Translations under genes and position numbers: made by a program
NCBI GenBank assembly: GCA_019058515.1
Contig: JAHPYY010000118.1
Coordinates: 1 to 29,969, forward strand
Source of the DNA: Promethearchaeota archaeon
GTDB lineage: Archaea > Asgardarchaeota > Lokiarchaeia > Sigynarchaeales > SOKP01
Length of the DNA stretch: 29,969 bases
Reading direction: 5' to 3'
Shown: in pieces, positions 6,823 through 20,171 of the stretch
Numbering within the stretch: the stretch's first letter is position 1
Layout: each line of letters begins with the position of its first letter
Notes under the pieces: generated by a model
The model's database searches: none
What the model was told of the DNA's origin: nothing
The model's input: the letters and a program-made list of their open reading frames with translations, nothing else

Positions 6823-7116
6823 CTAAATTTCTAAACGTCTTAAAATTTTATAAGTCTTAAAATCACGCACGGGCTCGTGATTTTCATTTAATCGTTCGAT
6901 AGGCACTCGAACAAAATTTTCTTCGTCCAGATCTTCCATATCATAATCTTTTTTATATTTAACGATATTATTTGCTAATTTTAATTCCTTTAATAAGAAT
7001 TCTCTCACCGCACAACGGATTAGTTCTGATCTAGAAGGATACAATCCATCTTCGCCAACAAGTTTCTCGATGGCATCGATAAAGCTCTCTGGGATGTTTA
7101 CAGTAACGATCTTCAT
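6823..7116 (-). CDS. Ribbon-helix-helix (CopG/Arc-type) transcriptional regulator
   Basis: The first 45 residues are a classic ribbon-helix-helix: a beta strand KIVTVNIPE that pairs in the dimer and reads the DNA groove, helix one FIDAIEKLVG, the turn YPSRSELI and helix two RCAVREFLLKEL. The remaining 50 residues are charged and end in a basic stretch; they show no ligand-binding domain such as the NikR ACT domain. A good ribosome-binding site (AAAGG, 7 nt before the ATG) supports the start. The gene is divergent from the membrane-protein gene at 7520 across a 403-bp spacer that holds a TATA-like box, ATGATATGATAT and a large palindrome. Autoregulation is therefore likely but inferred. The regulated genes are unknown. 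Confidence 0.85.
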   Translation of the reverse strand: MKIVTVNIPESFIDAIEKLVGEDGLYPSRSELIRCAVREFLLKELKLANNIVKYKKDYDMEDLDEENFVRVPIERLNENHEPVRDFKTYKILRRLEI

Positions 7117-10479: not shown

Positions 10480-11742
10480 ATGAATAAATCTGAAGATATT
10501 TTGTCCAACCCAAAATTTATGGAATGGGGGATCATAACGAAAGAAAATTTTAAAGACATTTATGACCTTCCAATTAAGAGATGGGATCCGTTATCTACAG
10601 TAATGATCAAAACTAAAGATTTTGGCTTGCGAGAAGAAAAAATACGATACTTTGGACATTATTCCTATTTAAGCCCGATCAGAGGTAAGCGACCTAAAGG
10701 CTTTAAAGAATTGGATATAGCCAATTTAAACGAAGATTGCATAAGTGATTTCTATTCAGATTTCAAAGATGTATTTATGGCTGTTATAAAAGGGAAGGAA
10801 TTACGATCAAAGGATGGGAGTTTAGCTGGTGATGGGTATACAATAATTATCACCGAAGATCGAAAGAGAAGAGACAATCCATTTATAGAATACCCTCACC
10901 GAATCTTTAAGCTTCCTGTTTCATGTAAAGCTATTACTTTAATAAATCGATATCCTTCCATGGCTAGAATAGTAGACCAAGAAATTTGTAGCTATGCGGA
11001 ACAACAATTACCACATCACTTAAAAGTCGCTAGAGGAATTAATCTTGTTACATTAACGAAAGAGTTTTACCCTTCTCATTGTTTAAACCTTATTCCTACT
11101 GAGGTAATTGAAGCGTTATTTCTATCAATGAAGGAAGCAATTTTGTATTGCGTGCAAGAATCCATAGATAGAGACTATTACGATATCCCTGTATCTCCAT
11201 TTTTTAATATTGGTCAGAAGGTTGGGGGGTCCCAACCACGCTTTCACGGTCAAGTGTATATCGACCTGAACCAAGATGGTCACGGAAGTCGCTTGGAGCA
11301 TTACCTTGAAGCATTTAAAGAAATGGGAAACGATTGCCATTTATGTGAAACCACTCACGGAGATAGTGATCGCTTATTAATTAAAACAAAATTCTGGACG
11401 TTCTATACTTCAGGGAGCCCCATTAGAAATTATCATATTAGATTTCACCCTAATGAACACATAAGAAGGTTTTCGCAACTTAAGTCAAATCAAATCCGAG
11501 ATTTTTCCGTGATTTTGAAGAAAATTTCGGAGGCGTTAAACGAAATCGGAATCGACAAGAATAGAAATATCTTCTTTAACAGTTGCCCTTACGGTTACGA
11601 TGCAGATTTCCACCTTTTCGGTGATCTCATCCCACACGAGACGATCGGCGGCGCAGAGATGGCAGAAGACATGCGAGTTGCTAGAAAACTCCCCCATATC
11701 GCCGCTTTTGAGATAAGAGAGGCACTCTATAGGAATAAATAG
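10480..11742 (+). CDS. GalT-like HIT-superfamily nucleotidyltransferase homologue
   Basis: The 420-residue protein fits the two-domain layout of galactose-1-phosphate uridylyltransferase. The segment NIGQKVGGSQPRFHGQVY (243-260) corresponds to the GalT active site N-x-G-x-x-x-G-x-S-x-x-H-P-H-G-Q; the nucleophilic second His (256) and Gln (258) remain, but the first His is Arg. CHLC (286-289) could bind a metal, although in classical GalT the Cys pair lies before the active site. The C-terminal ADFHLFGDLIPHETIGGAEM matches the second HIT domain, where FHxHIE is usual. GalT and relatives exchange nucleotides between a sugar 1-phosphate and a nucleotide sugar, or phosphorolyse a nucleotide sugar. 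The next plus-strand gene is a sugar nucleotidyltransferase, so a nucleotide-sugar role is likely. The substrate and full activity are uncertain because of the changed His. Confidence 0.75.
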   Translation: MNKSEDILSNPKFMEWGIITKENFKDIYDLPIKRWDPLSTVMIKTKDFGLREEKIRYFGHYSYLSPIRGKRPKGFKELDIANLNEDCISDFYSDFKDVFMAVIKGKELRSKDGSLAGDGYTIIITEDRKRRDNPFIEYPHRIFKLPVSCKAITLINRYPSMARIVDQEICSYAEQQLPHHLKVARGINLVTLTKEFYPSHCLNLIPTEVIEALFLSMKEAILYCVQESIDRDYYDIPVSPFFNIGQKVGGSQPRFHGQVYIDLNQDGHGSRLEHYLEAFKEMGNDCHLCETTHGDSDRLLIKTKFWTFYTSGSPIRNYHIRFHPNEHIRRFSQLKSNQIRDFSVILKKISEALNEIGIDKNRNIFFNSCPYGYDADFHLFGDLIPHETIGGAEMAEDMRVARKLPHIAAFEIREALYRNK

Positions 11743-12015: not shown

Positions 12016-13167
12016 ATGACAAGAGATTGGTCTGCAATTATTTTAGCAGGTGGAAAAGGGTCAAGGTTAATGCCTTTAACCGCTGAATGGCCTAAGCCGC
12101 TCGTTAAAGTAACAAACGTTCCAATGGTTGATTATGCTATAGCCCACTTAATTTACGCAGATATAAAGCATATTACACTTGCGTTAGCTTATATGGGAGA
12201 AAAAGTAGAGAAGTATATTAAAAAAGTATGGACTCCAGAGAGATTGGGGGATGTAGAATTAGAATGCATTGTCAACGAGAGTCGAGGAACCGCAGATGCG
12301 TATCGTTTACTAACAGAAAAAGTTTCCTCCGAAAATGTAGTCGTCTCAATGGCAGATATAGTTACTAATCTTCCAATGAAAGAATTTATGAAATTTCATG
12401 TAGAGAAAGGAGGGATTGCAACTATCTCCATGAAAACCGTCGAATCTCATACATCACAGTATGGAGTAGTGTTGTTGGACAATAACCGTAAAATTTATTT
12501 GTTTTTAGAAAAACCCGCTCCAATGGAATTGTATGTTAGTAGCATGGCACAGAGAACAGACTTATTTTTACACACTAATATTATTAATACTGGTATATAT
12601 TCGTTTAAGCGTGGAATTGGAGATGTATTACACGAAACGGGGTTAATGGATTTTGGGGGGGAAGTATTTCCCTATTTGCTCGAAAATAGCTACGATTTAT
12701 TCGGTTTTGTCAAAGATTACTATTGGCTCGATTGTGGAAACGCGCAAACGTATCTCTGGGCAAATTGGGATTTACTTAGAAAGTATGCTTGGCCGATAAC
12801 GCCAAATGGTAATGATTACGATGGAATCTTTGTTATGGGAATAATTGATTCTGGTCAAGATGTAATTATCGAAAGACCTACTTGTTTTGGAGAAAATGTG
12901 AAATTAAGCAATAGAACTAAAATCAAACCCTTAACTTCGATAGGTAATCAGGTTTCAATTGGAGAAGACACATATATAGATAAAAGTGTAATTTGGGATA
13001 ATGTAACTATTGGAGCGGGATGTATTTTAAATGAAAGCATCATTTGTAGCAATTGCGAGATTGGGGATAATGTTGTACTTGAAAAATGTATTATCGCGCC
13101 TAATTGTAAAATTAGCAACGACCACCAATTAAGAGATAAAACATTGGAATTAGGAGAACGAGTTTAG
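12016..13167 (+). CDS. Sugar-phosphate nucleotidyltransferase with C-terminal left-handed beta-helix
   Basis: The N-terminal 240 residues form a nucleotidyltransferase domain: the glycine-rich signature LAGGKGSRLMPLT...WPKPL (10-29) binds NTP, and Asp in VVVSMADI is the probable metal ligand. FLEKPAPME, NTGIYSF and YYWLDCGNAQTYLWANWD match the sugar-binding core of glucose- or mannose-1-phosphate nucleotidyltransferases. From about residue 275 the chain has hexapeptide repeats ([IV]-G-x-x-x-x-[IV], e.g. SIGNQVSIGEDTYI), a left-handed beta-helix typical of GlmU/GCD1-like proteins. It should make an NDP-sugar from sugar 1-phosphate and NTP; base and sugar cannot be fixed. In many bacteria this unit is fused to a phosphomannomutase-like domain, and a stand-alone homologue of that domain is encoded at 16832. 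The stop is 8 bp from the convergent glycosidase stop. No Shine-Dalgarno sequence is seen. Confidence 0.88.
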   Translation: MTRDWSAIILAGGKGSRLMPLTAEWPKPLVKVTNVPMVDYAIAHLIYADIKHITLALAYMGEKVEKYIKKVWTPERLGDVELECIVNESRGTADAYRLLTEKVSSENVVVSMADIVTNLPMKEFMKFHVEKGGIATISMKTVESHTSQYGVVLLDNNRKIYLFLEKPAPMELYVSSMAQRTDLFLHTNIINTGIYSFKRGIGDVLHETGLMDFGGEVFPYLLENSYDLFGFVKDYYWLDCGNAQTYLWANWDLLRKYAWPITPNGNDYDGIFVMGIIDSGQDVIIERPTCFGENVKLSNRTKIKPLTSIGNQVSIGEDTYIDKSVIWDNVTIGAGCILNESIICSNCEIGDNVVLEKCIIAPNCKISNDHQLRDKTLELGERV

Positions 13168-13175
13168 AGTTATTT

Positions 13176-16100
13176 TCAATCTTTTACTAGATCTATTAAT
13201 TTGGCTACTTGATAATCAGAATTTTTAGCGTTGTCTCTCCAGTTTTTTACAACCTTGATCAAATTTTGAACGCTTTCATCTTCATATTCTCCAGTGTCTG
13301 AGAAAAGATCAATTATAGCTACGATAAATAGCCATTTAGTAAGTTCATTGAAGGATTCTGCATTGAACCATAATTTATCGTGGTATCTGTTAATGTTTAA
13401 GTAGCGTTGTATTTCAGGTATGCTTAAAATGTAGTTCAAAGGCATTTTTCGCTCAGTTTCGGAAGATATTATCCTGTGCCAATTTTGTTGAGACACCATA
13501 TTTTTAATTAATGAGATCGTATTCCACGAATCAATATCATCCTCTTTTATTTCTTCCAGAAACTCGTAAATCACTCGGTTTAAATGCCACTCATCAACCC
13601 AAGATCTACTCAAAATCTCGTAATTTTTTTGCGTTTTTACCAATCCCAGTTTATGCAATATCAGCCAAATATACAGTATGCCTTTTTCGTGAGTGTTTTT
13701 AGGGTATAACTCGTAGATCCATTGCTTTTTTTCCTCGCTAAGAGACGATCTTTTAATAAACCCTCGAAGCTCTAGAGCAACCTTTCCTTTTCTCAAGATA
13801 GTTTCCTCAATCACTTCTGGATTATTTTTTCCAGAAGAATAATTTCTTGCTTCCCTCAATAATTGCTTTAAGTTTAAATGAAGTTCTTCTAAGATTTTTT
13901 CGTTATTTTTAACTTGTTCAATGCTCGAAATCATTTTTGTGTTTATTATCCTCCTCAAAGGTTCATGTAAAGGTTGATAAATGATGCTCTGAAGAGTATT
14001 TTCAATATTGTGAACTCCATTCCCTCTCAACAGAGAGTACAATTGAGCGTAATGGAAAAATGGGTCTTTCTGGATTATGCGAAAGTCCATGAACACATGA
14101 GTTTTAAAAGCCTTAAGTTCGAGGTATAACCCTTTCTCGCTAATCTCTTTATTTAATCTAATGTATTCTAAACCCGACATATAATCCTTAAAGATGCAAT
14201 ATCCTTCGTTTGGTACTTCTAACCCTTCAGAAAGCGTTTTCTGCACGATTAATTTATCCTCTCCTTCTTTTAGAGCAAACCCCACTGAATTTTTGATGAA
14301 TCCCTTGGTTTCTGCGTATTTATTGTGGTAAACGACTAAAGCCCGTTCTTCGAAGAATTTATTTGAGTACGCAAATACATCTTCGTTTACGTGATTTCCT
14401 GCCCAAAAATCGTACATATAGAAGTTCTTAACTTCAGCAAATAAATAGCGTTTTTTCATTATAGGAAAGATAGTGTTAATATGGTGATTTAGCAAACCTT
14501 CGTCGATTTTTTCATCCCAATAAGATCGCCTATATTCCATTCCATATTTCTCGGAATATCCTTCGATTTGCCCGTGTCCAAACATTGGCAAACCTGGCAT
14601 GGTAACCATTAGTGTGCAGATTCCGAAGTACTTTTCTCCTTTTCCAAATTGTATTGCTGCCGTTTCCTCATCGGGATTGTTCAAAAAGTTCACAAATCTC
14701 TTGAGGATTTCGGGATCAAACTCCAAGGTGTTCTTTATTACAGCTCGATAATTGGCGTTTTCTTCGTCTCTTAGCATGTTCATAAACGCTGAATTATATA
14801 CACGATGCATTCCAAGAGTTCGAACGAAAAAACCTTCCAAAAGCCAAAACGCTTCGGCAAGTAACAATGTATCTGGATTTTCCTTGTTTATACGGTCTAC
14901 TACTTCTCTCCAAAATTCCTTTGGCATTTTTTGGAGAAATTCTTCCCTAGATATACCATGTTCTGCCCTCGAGGGAATGGCTCCTCCTGTTCCCGGTTGA
15001 GGAAACCACAATCTCTGAAAGTGTTTTCTTGTTAATGTCATTGCTGCATCAAAGCGGATAATGGGAAACATTTTAGAGACTTGCAAGATTGTGTTTATTA
15101 CAGTTTCTCGTACTTCGGGAATAAGAAAATTAAGTTGAGCTGTATCGTTCCAGGGAAAACTAGTACCGTCGTTTCCGTGGTAGACATATCTATCCCTGTA
15201 TCCTGTTCGGAGCTTAAAAGTAACAGCCGCATCGGTTCTACTGAAGTACTTATCTTCTATATAAATTCCAATATTAGGATTTCCAGATAAATTTTCTCCT
15301 GAATACGAATAGGAGGGAAAAGGAGGATAATCCAAGCTTATGAACCAATCTGGATGCTCTATTATCCATTTCGAAACGATCCCTGTGTGATTAGGGACCA
15401 TGTCACTTGCTAATCTAATCCCTCTTGCGCTTGCTCTACTTTTTAAGTTGACTAAGGAATCATACCCTCCCAAATCGTACGCAATCACATAATCATAGAG
15501 TGAGTAAGCACTAGCTTCAGCTTCGGGATTTCCACACCAATTTTTTATAGTTTTAGACGCCTGACTCCTTTCCCAAATGCCTATTAACCACAACGCGTTA
15601 AATCCCCAATTTCTTAGTTGGTCAAGTTCTTCATTGGGAATCTCGTGGAGTTTGGTAATTGATCGCTTGTACTTCTTCGATAATTGATCTAACCAAACAT
15701 AGGTGTTTTTGGCAATCATTACTACTTTTGGCATCCAATCCTTATCAGGTGTGAAATTTTCTGTTTCTGCTAAGTCATATTCATAAATTTTAGCCTTTCC
15801 CGGTCCCAAACCTCTGAACATTTCTTCTTCGCGTATTAAGTCAAGAGCCAAAAGTATTTTGCGTGCGTAATCTCCCAACAAATCTCCCCAGTTTTGTATC
15901 ATATAATTCAATTGATTTTTGATCGAATTAGGGAATTCCTCGGATGGTTCTTTTAGAAATTCAATAACAGATTGATTTTTATAGCCAAAATGGGGTTTAG
16001 ATTCGAAAAATGTATGTATTTCATTTACTATTTTCTTATAGGTTGTAGATTTTTCTAATTCGTCCGAAGTAAAGAACTCTTTATAAGGAAGAAAGGAAGA

Positions 16101-16565
16101 GTTTACCGTACCTAACCATAAAAAGGCAAACTCGTTAAGTACGTTAATTTCGTTGGCAATATCACCAGTCTTTTTCCTTAGATATTCTTCAATTTTAATT
16201 TTATCTTTAAACAAACTATCTGGAGGAAATTGCTGTAGTAACTCCAAAGTTGAATTTCTCAACTTTTCTGAACCAACTTGCTTTTTTAAATACTCGTATA
16301 ATTCTTCTTCGAGATTTGAGATATTATTTTTCGCTTTGTACAAATTAAAAATACGTTCATTAATTTCGAATATCAAGGAAACTCCGTAAAAATGACCCGT
16401 TTTTACCGCTAATTCTGGATAATTGATTAAATCTTTCTTTTCATTTACTTTTTGTACGAATTTTCTTACTTTATAGATGTTTCCATCAAAAACAATGTTT
16501 CCTTTCTCATCGAACTCAAAATCTTCGAGTAAATATTTACTTCTAGCTTCTCGGGAGATTTTCAT
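13176..16565 (-). CDS. Large GH13 (alpha-amylase family) glycoside hydrolase or transferase
   Basis: The 1129-residue protein has a central GH13 barrel. Region I is DMVPNH (388-393), region II RFDAA with the nucleophile Asp506, and region III LLAEAFW with the acid/base Glu571. Region IV reads NNPDEETA (629-636), keeping the third carboxylate Asp632 but with Pro where most enzymes have His. MPGLPMFGHGQIEGY follows. About 300 residues precede the barrel and more than 400 follow; the C-terminal part is largely helical and unrecognised. There is no signal peptide, so the enzyme should act inside the cell on alpha-glucans such as glycogen or on maltooligosaccharides, by hydrolysis or glucanosyl transfer. 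The layout recalls a family of roughly 1100-residue GH13 proteins in bacteria and archaea. It is surrounded by nucleotide-sugar genes and ends 8 bp from the nucleotidyltransferase. Confidence 0.88.
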   Translation of the reverse strand: MKISREARSKYLLEDFEFDEKGNIVFDGNIYKVRKFVQKVNEKKDLINYPELAVKTGHFYGVSLIFEINERIFNLYKAKNNISNLEEELYEYLKKQVGSEKLRNSTLELLQQFPPDSLFKDKIKIEEYLRKKTGDIANEINVLNEFAFLWLGTVNSSFLPYKEFFTSDELEKSTTYKKIVNEIHTFFESKPHFGYKNQSVIEFLKEPSEEFPNSIKNQLNYMIQNWGDLLGDYARKILLALDLIREEEMFRGLGPGKAKIYEYDLAETENFTPDKDWMPKVVMIAKNTYVWLDQLSKKYKRSITKLHEIPNEELDQLRNWGFNALWLIGIWERSQASKTIKNWCGNPEAEASAYSLYDYVIAYDLGGYDSLVNLKSRASARGIRLASDMVPNHTGIVSKWIIEHPDWFISLDYPPFPSYSYSGENLSGNPNIGIYIEDKYFSRTDAAVTFKLRTGYRDRYVYHGNDGTSFPWNDTAQLNFLIPEVRETVINTILQVSKMFPIIRFDAAMTLTRKHFQRLWFPQPGTGGAIPSRAEHGISREEFLQKMPKEFWREVVDRINKENPDTLLLAEAFWLLEGFFVRTLGMHRVYNSAFMNMLRDEENANYRAVIKNTLEFDPEILKRFVNFLNNPDEETAAIQFGKGEKYFGICTLMVTMPGLPMFGHGQIEGYSEKYGMEYRRSYWDEKIDEGLLNHHINTIFPIMKKRYLFAEVKNFYMYDFWAGNHVNEDVFAYSNKFFEERALVVYHNKYAETKGFIKNSVGFALKEGEDKLIVQKTLSEGLEVPNEGYCIFKDYMSGLEYIRLNKEISEKGLYLELKAFKTHVFMDFRIIQKDPFFHYAQLYSLLRGNGVHNIENTLQSIIYQPLHEPLRRIINTKMISSIEQVKNNEKILEELHLNLKQLLREARNYSSGKNNPEVIEETILRKGKVALELRGFIKRSSLSEEKKQWIYELYPKNTHEKGILYIWLILHKLGLVKTQKNYEILSRSWVDEWHLNRVIYEFLEEIKEDDIDSWNTISLIKNMVSQQNWHRIISSETERKMPLNYILSIPEIQRYLNINRYHDKLWFNAESFNELTKWLFIVAIIDLFSDTGEYEDESVQNLIKVVKNWRDNAKNSDYQVAKLIDLVKD

Positions 16566-16831
16566 AATTAATCTTAATATAGTTTTTAGAAGGATATAGT
16601 CTTGGATAATTATTACTTCATTAAATCTATTTCACAAGTAAAGAATATAATATAAAGTGGTATATTCAATCTTAAAATTTAATGCTTTATTTTATTAGTG
16701 CACATCTTTCATGAGTGAAACAGATTCAATTTTGAGTTTATTCTAAAAACCATAAAATTAATTATAAAGGAGATTAGTTTATCACTAAGAAATTGAATCT
16801 CTTTCAAAATTTAATTTGAAATTGTAGAAGG

Positions 16832-18208
16832 ATGGTAGACAATTTATCTGAAATTACTAAAAATGGACGTATTATCGGTCGTGCTAACTATGTGTTCACT
16901 CCCGAAATCGCATCAAGAATAGGATCAATTCACGGGAGCCAGTTTAAGCAAAATGAATCGATAGTAATTGGACGAGACTATAGTAACGATTCTCGTATGC
17001 TTAAAAGAGGCTATACCTCCGGTATTATGTCGGCAGGAGTAAATATACTAAATTTATCAGATTCAACTTATCCTCTGTTGCAATTTACCATAAGACGATT
17101 TGGAGCAAGTGGAGGTGCGTATTTTTCAGGGGGTCACCTCTACAGCGAGGATTGTGGAGTAAGATTTATTGATGCAGGAGGTATGGAGCTTTCAAAGTTT
17201 GATATTCAGAGCATTATAGAATCGTATAATACTTTTCCAAAACAAATACGTAGAGTGGACCCTAATCAAATAGGGTTAATAACGGCTATACCTAATACAG
17301 AAGATATATACATAAAGTCTCTTCAGCAGTTTGTAAATAAGCAAAAAATAAAAGAACAGAAACTTAAAATCGTAGTTGATTGTTCTTATGGACCCACAGG
17401 AAAAATTACTCCGCTCCTGTTAAATGAAATTGGCGTAGAAGTAATCGCCTTAAATACCCATTATCGAGAGAGATTCACAAATCCTGTGCCCAACATTACA
17501 TCAATCCAAAATTGTGCGAACATTGTAAAAGCGTCTAATAGCCACCTAGGGGTGTGTTTTGATGTAGACGGCTCTCGCTTACTCGTCATTGATGAAAACG
17601 GTTTAGAAGTTAATTGTGAAGACTTGATCATGCTCTTTATTGCGTACGACAAACGTATTCAAAATTCAAAAGCTAACAGCATAATTATAACTCCTTCAAC
17701 ATCACCCGTTGTTAAAAAGTATATTGAAGACGATGGATATACTGTAAATTTAGTAAACAACGATCCAGGGGAAATTTCAAGACAAATCCGAGAACAACGA
17801 GCGTGCTTCGCAGCAGCAGATACTCTTAAGTTTTACTTTCCTCAATTTGCACCATTTTCTGACGGTAATTTCATACTTCTTAAACTATTAGAAATAATGA
17901 CTGATCAAGAGGATCTCATAAGTTCTTTAACGCGTGGATTTCCAAAGGGTATTAAAATTAATAAAACGGTACCTGTTTCGGAAAATCTTATTGGGAGCCT
18001 TCATAACAAATTAAGAGAAATGGCAGAAAACAACGGATTCCAATACCAAGATATTATCAACGAGTTAAAGATAATAGAAAACGAGGTTAACACTACCATT
18101 AAAATTTCTCTTAACAGAAATGCTATACTCTTATCTTCAGAATCTGAGGATCAAGTACTAGCAAAAGATTCTATAAGACGCATCGAGCAATATGTTCTTG
18201 AGATTTAA
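16832..18208 (+). CDS. Degenerate phosphohexomutase (phosphomannomutase/phosphoglucomutase-like), probably inactive
   Basis: The 458-residue chain follows the alpha-D-phosphohexomutase fold, from IIGRANYVFTPEIASRIG (domain 1) through KIVVDCSYGPTGKITPLLL (domain 2). The active-site loop aligns without gaps to the usual GG-x-x-x-TASHNP-x-x-x-x-GIK as GGAYFSGGHLYSEDCGVR: the phospho-Ser is Gly100 while the His is kept. The metal loop D-G-D-x-D-R reads DVDGSR (244-249), lacking the third Asp. The sugar-binding GEESG loop reads AAADTLKFYF and the C-terminal R-x-SGTEP loop is absent. Enzymatic mutase activity is therefore unlikely. The same loss is characteristic of mutase-like domains fused to nucleotidyltransferases in bacteria, so this protein may assist the enzyme at 12016 as a structural or regulatory subunit. 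GAAGG abuts the ATG. Confidence 0.85.
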   Translation: MVDNLSEITKNGRIIGRANYVFTPEIASRIGSIHGSQFKQNESIVIGRDYSNDSRMLKRGYTSGIMSAGVNILNLSDSTYPLLQFTIRRFGASGGAYFSGGHLYSEDCGVRFIDAGGMELSKFDIQSIIESYNTFPKQIRRVDPNQIGLITAIPNTEDIYIKSLQQFVNKQKIKEQKLKIVVDCSYGPTGKITPLLLNEIGVEVIALNTHYRERFTNPVPNITSIQNCANIVKASNSHLGVCFDVDGSRLLVIDENGLEVNCEDLIMLFIAYDKRIQNSKANSIIITPSTSPVVKKYIEDDGYTVNLVNNDPGEISRQIREQRACFAAADTLKFYFPQFAPFSDGNFILLKLLEIMTDQEDLISSLTRGFPKGIKINKTVPVSENLIGSLHNKLREMAENNGFQYQDIINELKIIENEVNTTIKISLNRNAILLSSESEDQVLAKDSIRRIEQYVLEI

Positions 18209-18352: not shown

Positions 18353-19036
18353 ATGAACTTGAATATAACAAGCGCCATAGTTTTAGGAACGCTTTTTTTA
18401 ATTTTTATCGTGTTTCTCATCTTCGATGTATTCAAACGCAACGAAAAGTGGGGTTTTTTAGCTTACATTGTTGCGGTTGTTCCAGTAAATTATATGTGGA
18501 TTCTTGGACTCGATATTCTTCTCGTATGGATAGTTCTGTTTTCCCTTTGGAGCGTAACACTTCTTCGAGATCTTTTATGGGTTTATAGGAAAACCAAGGA
18601 ATTCGACGACATACTCCTGTTTCTATTGCTCGGAGTGCTCGTTCAAATCATTGTAGTTGCTATATTACCCGCACCACAATTGTTTAGCTATCTCCAAACT
18701 AACGCAACTCCTTACTGGGTGTTCTGGTTTCCAGATGTGTACGATGTTACCAACGATTTTGCGATTAAATCCTGGGTAAATACCACGTACTTGATGGCTT
18801 ACAGATTGTTGGCATCCTTGGTAATTACATTGGCCATTATCCCTCTCTTGCTCGATATAAAAGACGAAGAAGTAAGCTTTCCAATAATTGTTATCATTAC
18901 CGCTCTATTTATCATTCCATTCCTGATCTTAAGTTTAATTTGGCTCCCTCAAGCTGCAGCAGTACTTACATTTCTCTTATCGGTGGTTTTGTTCATCGTA
19001 CTGCTAATAATTACACGCTCTGGCAAAGAAGGATAA
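18353..19036 (+). CDS. Polytopic membrane protein of unknown function
   Basis: The 227-residue protein has six or seven membrane helices, at about 7-27, 33-50, 53-76, 86-107, 146-167, 175-198 and 200-221. A loop of about 35 residues between helices four and five (PQLFSYLQTNATPYWVFWFP) is rich in aromatic residues, and NATP and NTTY are possible glycosylation sites if that loop is outside. No transporter, enzyme or sensor signature is recognised. A T-run follows the stop, so it is probably a single transcription unit ahead of radA rather than an operon partner. Confidence 0.7.
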   Translation: MNLNITSAIVLGTLFLIFIVFLIFDVFKRNEKWGFLAYIVAVVPVNYMWILGLDILLVWIVLFSLWSVTLLRDLLWVYRKTKEFDDILLFLLLGVLVQIIVVAILPAPQLFSYLQTNATPYWVFWFPDVYDVTNDFAIKSWVNTTYLMAYRLLASLVITLAIIPLLLDIKDEEVSFPIIVIITALFIIPFLILSLIWLPQAAAVLTFLLSVVLFIVLLIITRSGKEG

Positions 19037-19056
19037 AATTGGATTAAAACTTCAAA

Positions 19057-19064
19057 TTTTTTTT
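19057..19064 (+). terminator. Oligo-T terminator before radA
   Basis: A run of eight T about 20 bp after the membrane-protein stop codon fits an archaeal terminator and separates that gene from radA. Confidence 0.5.
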
Positions 19065-19097
19065 CTAAATTAATTTATTAATCTCTTTCGTTATATT

Positions 19098-19110
19098 ATA
19101 CTATATAAAG
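19098..19110 (+). promoter_or_regulatory. TATA box of radA
   Basis: TTATACTATATAAAG spans this site, about 60 bp before the radA ATG. It would give a leader of roughly 30-40 nt; no Shine-Dalgarno motif is visible in it. Confidence 0.4.
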
Positions 19111-19166
19111 AAATTAATTTTCCAATAATTTACATACAAACTAAAGATTGAGTTCCCTTTTGTAAA

Positions 19167-20171
19167 ATGGCGAAAAAAAAAGAATCCTCCAAAGAAGACG
19201 CCGAAGATTCTAAATTAGATACTACCTCAGAAAAGCAGTACGAACTACAGGATCTCCCCGGAGTCGGAGACGCAACATTAAAGAAGTTAAAAGACGCAGG
19301 TATTCTTTCAGTACGAGCATTAGCGTTTTATCCAATTACGAAATTAATTGAGGACGCAGGGGTGGGAGAAAAAACTGCTGTGAAACTCATTAAAACCGCA
19401 CAAGACATAGAAAAAATGGGATTCAAGTCTGCAGACGCGATATGGGAAAAAAGGAGATTGTTACGAAAGCTATCCACAGGTTCTAATAACTTAGACGATT
19501 TGCTTGGTGGTGGTATTGAACCTGGCGCAGTGACGGAGTTTTTTGGGGAATTTAGGACTGGAAAGACGCAACTCGCCCACCAATTATGCGTTAATGTACA
19601 AAAGACTTACGAAGAAGGTGGACTCGAAGGAAACGCTCTTTATGTCGACACCGAGGGCACATTCCGTCCAGAAAGAATTATTCAAATGGCTGAAGGAAAA
19701 GACATGGATTATAGCCAATGTTTACGGAACATCATAGTTGGACGGGCATACAACAGCGATCATCAGTTACTCCTAGTAAGGGAAACTTCAAAGTTAATTG
19801 AAGAAAGAAATATTAAACTGATAATAGTAGATTCCATAATCGGCCATTTTAGAAGCGAGTATGTAGGTCGTGGTACATTAGCAGCACGACAACAAATGTT
19901 AAACATGCATATCCACGATCTTTTAAGACTTAGCGAGACTTACGAAGAGTTAGCTGTAGTATTTTGTAACCAAGTCCAAAGTCGACCCGACGTGTTCTAC
20001 GGTAATCCTTTAACTCACTCTGGAGGCAACATAATCGCGCACGGATCAACCATTCGCGTATTTTTAAGGAAGGGTAAAGGAGAACAAAGAGTTGCGAAAA
20101 TTGTGGATGCCCCCCACCTACCTGAAGCTGACGCAGTGTTTTCCATCACAGAAAATGGTATTGAAGATTAG
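19167..20171 (+). CDS. radA: DNA repair and recombination protein RadA
   Basis: The 334-residue protein is a full archaeal RadA/Rad51 recombinase. The charged N-terminus precedes a helix-hairpin-helix DNA-binding domain (LQDLPGVGDATLKKL, then GVGEKTAVKL). The RecA-fold ATPase has Walker A GEFRTGKTQ (127-135, with Arg where most have Gly or Ser) and Walker B LIIVDS. VGRGTLAARQQMLN matches the L1/DNA-binding region, NQVQSRPDVFYGNPLTHSGGN the L2 region, and the C-terminus PHLPEADAVFSITENGIED is nearly invariant in the family. It forms filaments on single-stranded DNA and catalyses homologous pairing and strand exchange. The polymerisation motif is not clear in the linker; AIWEKRRLLRKL occupies that place. 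It is transcribed alone from its own TATA box. Confidence 0.97.
   Translation: MAKKKESSKEDAEDSKLDTTSEKQYELQDLPGVGDATLKKLKDAGILSVRALAFYPITKLIEDAGVGEKTAVKLIKTAQDIEKMGFKSADAIWEKRRLLRKLSTGSNNLDDLLGGGIEPGAVTEFFGEFRTGKTQLAHQLCVNVQKTYEEGGLEGNALYVDTEGTFRPERIIQMAEGKDMDYSQCLRNIIVGRAYNSDHQLLLVRETSKLIEERNIKLIIVDSIIGHFRSEYVGRGTLAARQQMLNMHIHDLLRLSETYEELAVVFCNQVQSRPDVFYGNPLTHSGGNIIAHGSTIRVFLRKGKGEQRVAKIVDAPHLPEADAVFSITENGIED

Follow-up and report, generated by a model that had tools for sequence, protein, structure and literature searches.

Why should an archaeon keep a gene for a phosphohexomutase that seems unable to act as one? The question is raised by a protein encoded at positions 16832–18208 (+) of the window, by which we mean the whole stretch of 29,969 nucleotides analysed here (Promethearchaeota archaeon, contig JAHPYY010000118.1 of assembly GCA_019058515.1, forward strand; all coordinates refer to it). 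An initial inspection of the letters, here called the sequence-only reading, described the product as a catalytically dead mutase encoded apart from its usual nucleotidyltransferase fusion partner, with a suggested role in nucleotide-sugar synthesis. The results below support that interpretation in part.

The open reading frame encodes 458 residues. Pfam assigns PGM_PMM_I (69.8 bits) and PGM_PMM_II (66.3 bits), both above their cut-offs; PGM_PMM_III scores 20.3 bits, just below its cut-off of 20.7, and PGM_PMM_IV has no match. The best solved relatives are the archaeal PMM/PGM structures 9du5, 1wqa and 2f7l (E-values 1e-38 to 6e-32). When the protein is aligned with these three, the former phospho-Ser loop (residues 99–104, 17126–17143 (+)) pairs without a gap, SGGHLY replacing TASHNP, and the position of the phospho-Ser is occupied by Gly101. 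The former metal loop (residues 244–249, 17561–17578 (+)) reads DVDGSR in place of DGDADR, with the first two Asp and the Arg retained and the third Asp replaced by Ser248. The former sugar-binding loop (residues 327–333, 17810–17830 (+)) has become AAADTLK instead of GGEENGG, and the former phosphate-binding loop (residues 424–430, 18101–18121 (+)) K-SLNRN instead of R-SGTEP. Aligned together with 36 active Asgard mutases, the window protein shows the same losses: all 36 have the Ser, the third Asp, the Glu of the sugar loop and the Arg and Thr of the phosphate loop, and the window protein has none of them in this alignment either. Across a 23-row alignment of close relatives (mean column identity 84%) Gly101, Ser248, Ala327–329 and Lys424 are invariant, and the changed catalytic positions are thus not sequencing errors. 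The AlphaFold2 model of the protein is confident over the full-length fold (pLDDT 90.5, pTM 0.90). Foldseek returns 9du5 as its best match, and the matches to 9du5, 1wqa and 2f7l span the full length with TM-scores of 0.76–0.77 and an r.m.s.d. of about 8. The sequence-only reading had stated each of these points (a Gly for the phospho-Ser in a gapless loop, a metal loop short of its third Asp, sugar and phosphate loops gone, the fold kept), and all of them hold. Alignments and model together confirm a protein predicted to keep the full phosphohexomutase fold without any intact set of catalytic motifs.

The loss of four catalytic motifs would also be expected of a gene decaying without function, a reading that the conservation of the gene makes scarcely credible. 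Among the best 120 of 529 relatives, the window's own protein excepted, identity is 71–77% and length 458–466 residues; gene order is kept, and no internal stop occurs in any listed match of a profile search of 227 Asgard genomes. Wherever an organism is named for these best 120 it is an Asgard archaeon, and their database labels are hypothetical, mutase or guanylyltransferase/phosphomannomutase. Each of the 55 loci found by a scan of GTDB species genomes carries a Lokiarchaeota or Lokiarchaeia title. In the profile search the dead-mutase profile matches in 124 of the 227 genomes at 1e-30. Eight of these hold fused forms only and were dropped, as were seven whose copies were judged active (about 110–125 bits; six were seen as loci and one, G222, was judged by score only). 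This leaves a stand-alone homologue in 109 genomes, with scores that range between about 118 bits and, in Loki relatives, about 960 bits, a count that includes contig-end fragments (e.g. 69 residues in G186 and 173 in G031). Judged by this record, the gene is a conserved one and no relic.

Across the wider clade the active-site loop has drifted. The catalytic position, read in 83 distinct stand-alone rows, holds Gly 61 times, Ala 11 times, Ser seven times, Val twice, and Glu and another residue once each; the position of the third Asp is never Asp (Ser in 73, Arg in seven, Gln, Thr and Gly in one each). The seven rows with Ser fall into one subclade, whose active-site loop is TRSHNL and whose metal loop has the form DAE(G/A)RH or DPE(G/A)RH, and loss of the Ser is consequently not universal in the stand-alone clade. 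In this subclade (loci L132, L133, L135, L136, L139, L143 and L145) the third Asp and the Arg of the metal pattern are lost. The protein might still be an enzyme, with an altered sugar-phosphate chemistry that works through His102, Asp244, Asp246 and Arg249: the window protein retains the Arg together with the first two metal Asp, His102 is kept in 78 of the 83 rows and Asp244 in 82, and the subclade keeps Ser-His-Asn. However, the sugar and phosphate loops are gone, Asp246 is replaced in 19 of the 83 rows, and the loop varies by subclade, a pattern more in keeping with relaxed constraint than with a newly formed active site. We regard an altered enzyme as improbable. Drift of the active-site loop between subclades fits selection acting elsewhere than at the active site.

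Active Ser-His-loop mutases also occur in Asgard genomes, and the dead copy is thus a paralogue. The 36 fetched Asgard copies that served as actives all have the Ser-His loop. TIGR03990 matches 147 of 148 Asgard genomes, 83 of them above the cut-off (G001 has four matches), in a count that covers the whole superfamily with dead copies included. The idea that Loki genomes have no active mutase, suggested when three of four genomes gave a single match each, was rejected on the TIGR03990 count and the Ser-His loops. In three loci (L163, L164 and L165) two or three mutase paralogues are clustered, one copy having TGSHIP instead of TASHNP.

The candidate partner is encoded upstream, at 12016–13167 (+), and consists of an NTP_transferase domain and a hexapeptide (left-handed β-helix) domain. 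Its closest solved relatives include a UTP-glucose-1-phosphate uridylyltransferase (8x7s) and mannose-1-phosphate guanylyltransferases. In an alignment of 28 orthologues the Gly-rich loop, the Arg, the Lys, the metal Asp, the Glu-Lys pair and the second Asp are present in every row that covers them; seven of the 28 rows are without the N-terminal positions owing to the chosen start or a cut sequence. The transferase has intact catalytic residues and is predicted to be the catalytic subunit. Transferase matches were found in 124 of the 227 genomes, reduced to 106 when fused-only genomes and paralogues of about 30% identity were dropped. Both genes are present in 101 genomes, the mutase alone in eight, the transferase alone in five and neither in 113 (Fisher p about 1e-47, in a test that ignores kinship); draft genomes may miss genes, which bears on the eight and the five. 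In one genome (G001) the two are kept on one contig, though far apart. Among 19 loci from distant Asgards, picked because both genes are visible, 13 have them on the same strand within 100 bp, three have them convergent and three on the same strand 216–1925 bp apart; mutase and transferase genes overlap by 4 bp in L197 and by 17 bp in L130. In Loki-type loci the transferase lies upstream of the mutase in 39 of 55, at a distance of 1.9–8.4 kb, and most of the remaining 16 loci are short or cut. The gene trees of mutase and partner transferase have, by eye, a similar branching order, a pattern that plain vertical descent would also produce.

The same two parts are joined in one chain elsewhere. 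A database search with one of the Asgard fused transferase-mutase proteins gave 5435 matches, of which the best 120 were considered; their labels, where an organism is named, are archaeal or bacterial, and four proteins shorter than 800 residues were dropped to leave 116. Among these listed matches the TASHNP loop is lost in all 116 proteins of at least 800 residues; 17 carry Ser at that position of the alignment, none of them as Ser-His, and SHNP occurs nowhere in any of the 116. The sequence-only reading had described fused proteins with similar losses, and for the catalytic loop this is what was found. Elsewhere in the domain the fused form is better preserved, 59 of the 116 listed proteins keeping the three metal Asp and the Arg and 94 a GEE-GG-type sugar loop. 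As far as these alignments go, the stand-alone form is the one that has lost more motifs. Fusions of about 840 residues are found in 11 Asgard genomes by the mutase search, to which the transferase search adds two (G055 and G215).

In a maximum-likelihood tree the stand-alone, fused and active mutases form separate groups (ultrafast bootstrap/SH-aLRT 100/100, 99/93 and 100/99 respectively; the tree is unrooted), and two further mutase trees give a similar grouping. Stand-alone and fused dead domains group together, apart from the actives (100/99), in a tree to whose unrooted split a shared loss of constraint may add attraction; the window protein sides with the fused domains and away from the active mutases, as the sequence-only reading requires. 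The two dead groups also share basic residues that are common in fused dead domains and rare in active mutases, namely R55, K58 and R59 (16994–17008 (+)) and R141 (17252–17254 (+)). R55 is found in 81 of 83 stand-alone and 110 of 122 fused sequences, K58 in 73 of 83 and 111 of 122 (8 of 54 active), R59 in 82 of 83 and 114 of 122 (6 of 54 active), and R141 in 82 of 83 and 120 of 122, being outside the five commonest residues at its position in the actives. Tree separation and shared basic residues support a common dead ancestor of the stand-alone and fused domains.

Whether this ancestor was itself fused is a separate matter, which concerns origin only and is compatible with the partnership favoured below. 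The split of the mutase tree and the four basic residues are what one would see if the two genes of the window were the separated halves of an ancestral fusion, as the sequence-only reading implied. However, the unrooted transferase tree falls into three groups (partner, fused and other) with no special tie between partner and fused, and the partner transferase is about equally similar to fused proteins (29–34% identity) and to other transferases (28–33%). Three genomes (G110, G149 and G175) hold fused and split forms side by side, and fusion of once-separate genes explains the data equally well. The transferase tree does not show the genes to be split halves, and we hold fission to be doubtful.

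An AlphaFold2 model of one fused relative (pTM 0.66, linker of low confidence) was searched for an interface between the transferase and mutase parts and has no firm packing between them. None of six scanned neighbours of Asgard fused genes is a glycogen gene. Frames of about 400 residues with weak PF08323 matches (46–50 bits) lie within 2 kb of fused genes in two contigs (G008:C3 and G026:C29), so a glycosyltransferase gene may adjoin the fused form as well. Near one Asgard fused gene (L156) a protein with methyl-coenzyme M reductase alpha domains is encoded.

The pathway is suggested by the neighbourhood. As the sequence-only reading stated, the mutase and transferase genes of the window are separate, with a GH13 gene between them: the transferase gene ends at 13167, a 1129-residue GH13-type protein is encoded at 13176–16565 (−), and the mutase gene, head-to-head with the latter, begins at 16832. 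The intergenic stretch between the two divergent genes (16566–16831) is presumed to be a shared promoter region, a glucan enzyme gene being kept as the divergent neighbour in 49 of 53 Loki-type loci that have upstream sequence: it is GH57 in 26 and the GH13 of the window type in 23, with something else in four. The one GH57 scanned carries the BE_C branching-enzyme domain, and as GH57 and GH13 occupy the same slot, the GH13-type protein probably does a similar job. Its presence in the GH57 slot (23 versus 26 of 53) suggests replacement by an unrelated enzyme. Three acidic residues, putatively catalytic by comparison with known motifs, do not vary among the 26 GH13-type sequences compared; a search of solved structures with this protein gave no relative at 1e-4.

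Other α-glucan genes appear in relatives. In L128 and L129 a GT5 glycogen synthase gene lies 54 and 61 bp from the mutase gene in the same orientation, the order transferase, mutase, GT5 is seen in L197, a GH57 4-α-glucanotransferase adjoins the transferase in L128, and by coordinates GT5 lies within 6.5 kb of the mutase in 22 genomes. BE_C is found in 79 of the 227 genomes, 75 with the mutase and four without it, and 34 mutase genomes are without BE_C. PF08323 matches occur in 143 of the 227 genomes, 103 of the 109 mutase genomes among them; strong GT5 matches (>190 bits) are confined to 38 genomes, 35 of which hold the mutase. In Loki relatives the PF08323 matches, in frames of about 600 residues, are much weaker (roughly 65–90 bits), and these frames may encode something other than glycogen synthase; G001 contains BE_C and no PF08323 match. 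In the window itself the GH13 gene is the sole adjacent gene of glucan type, the synthase and branching context coming from relatives. Genomic context thus read suggests a glycogen-like glucan as the destination of the transferase-mutase pair. Since the neighbours in relatives are α-glucan genes, NDP-glucose for glycogen is likelier than general nucleotide-sugar synthesis; the role first proposed would thereby be narrowed as regards the pathway.

Several further genes of the cluster recur in related loci. A GalT/HIT-like protein (10480–11742 (+)) is encoded upstream of the transferase and kept in many related loci, where its relatives have 61–77% identity; its family scores are only weak. A small protein that looks by eye like a ribbon-helix-helix protein (6823–7116 (−)) has relatives just before the GalT-like gene in many loci, and its product is a possible regulator of the cluster. 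Directly after the mutase, at 18353–20171 (+), follow a membrane-like protein and RadA, an arrangement kept in 38 of 55 related loci; this order of mutase, membrane-like protein and RadA has long been kept without obvious reason.

The neighbourhood also offers the dead mutase a different partner. It may serve the glucan enzymes (GH57/GH13 branching enzyme or glycogen synthase) as a scaffold or as a partner that binds glucan or phosphosugar, its link to the transferase reflecting no more than a shared pathway. The comparison of Asgard gene neighbourhoods cuts both ways here: linkage with the transferase is found in distant Asgards (13 of 19 loci), but in Loki-type loci the closest neighbour of the mutase is the divergent glucan enzyme gene, GH57 or GH13, and the transferase lies kilobases off. 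The head-to-head arrangement in 49 of 53 loci and the directly adjoining GT5 genes of L128 and L129 fit such a role, as do six loci (L134, L137, L138, L140, L141 and L142) in which GH57 is beside or near the mutase and the transferase is unseen nearby. Yet co-occurrence with the transferase (101 genomes with both, eight and five with one alone) is tighter than with BE_C (75 with both, 34 and four with one alone), although GH13 may substitute for GH57 in some of these; moreover, it is to the transferase that the mutase domain is joined in fusions, and the overlapping genes pair the same two proteins. A primary partnership with the glucan enzymes appears unlikely to us.

We therefore return to the transferase as partner, a choice that rests on the kept fold, the shared basic residues, the tight co-occurrence, the gene overlaps and the natural fusions. 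On this evidence from sequence comparison, we consider it reasonably probable that the dead mutase is a non-catalytic subunit of the 12016–13167 transferase, the two forming an NDP-glucose pyrophosphorylase for a glycogen-like glucan. A phosphohexomutase by descent would have become a non-catalytic partner of the nucleotidyltransferase. The NDP-sugar made by the transferase would most likely be NDP-glucose, destined for a glycogen-like α-glucan, the identity of both sugar and nucleotide being deduced from context. The dead mutase would bind the transferase as a regulatory or structural subunit, and its presumed effect would be regulation, e.g. by sensing a sugar phosphate or by holding the right assembly; in the fused relatives the transferase and mutase parts form one chain. 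The eight genomes with the mutase alone, the five with the transferase alone and the seven of 83 rows that keep the Ser count against a subunit, as do the loose packing in the model of a fused relative, the small number of genomes with strong GT5 matches and the closer position of the glucan enzyme gene in Loki-type loci. Stated more broadly, the protein probably serves glucose-storage metabolism as a non-catalytic subunit, whether for control or for structure, and a regulatory or scaffolding role is plausible. A fuller picture can be offered tentatively: these archaea may make a storage glucan via a two-gene NDP-glucose pyrophosphorylase in which a worn-down mutase acts as sensor or tuner, and the fused single-chain version of other archaea and bacteria may be mislabelled as bifunctional. 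If that were true, the kind of enzyme that makes glucose-1-phosphate would have become the sensor or tuner of an enzyme that uses it.

The dead mutase is thus real, conserved and informative, and its function is a proposal. If the proposal is right, a widely kept Asgard protein gains a partner and a pathway, archaeal glycogen synthesis gains a directly testable regulator, and the label 'bifunctional' on a large fused family is put in question. The Streptomyces protein SCO1388 has been described as appearing bifunctional and was found to add probably little GDP-mannose pyrophosphorylase activity (PMC5982138). Archaeal glycogen enzymes have been reviewed, and in the portions of the review at hand the pathway and its regulation are called mainly unexplored and a fused pyrophosphorylase or phosphoglucomutase domain is not mentioned (PMC11046441). 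A further paper lists one Lokiarchaeota genome with a full set for glycogen synthesis (PMC6355812). Our search of the open-licence literature found no description of the dead mutase.

Among known systems the nearest in composition are the fused transferase-hexapeptide-PGM proteins, mostly of about 830–850 residues and some labelled 'mannose-1-phosphate guanylyltransferase/phosphomannomutase', which have the same domain set and the same loss of the catalytic loop. They differ from the window pair in being one chain, where the window has two genes with GH13 between them, and many of those listed keep the metal Asp and Arg and the GEE-GG loop that the window protein has lost. A mutase as protein partner of a nucleotidyl-transferring enzyme is seen in the GlmM-CdaA complexes (7olh, 7ojs and 9g69), in which GlmM inhibits the cyclase CdaA; unlike the window pair, GlmM is an active mutase and CdaA no sugar nucleotidyltransferase. 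PGM5/aciculin (6y8y, with bound glucose-1-phosphate) has, like the window protein as proposed here, a PGM fold thought to be non-enzymatic. It is eukaryotic and close to PGM1, and is not known to have mutase activity or a transferase partner. Further parallels in logic are the catalytically poor partner subunits GMPPA with GMPPB (7d72), the KJC-type protein with VTC1 (8yre) and GlgD with GlgC. In each, as proposed for the window, the tuning of an active transferase is ascribed to a sugar-enzyme relative that is itself non-catalytic. GMPPA, the KJC-type protein and GlgD have transferase folds, whereas the partner in the window has a mutase fold, and to employ a dead mutase, not a dead transferase, as the second subunit would solve a familiar regulatory problem in a new way.
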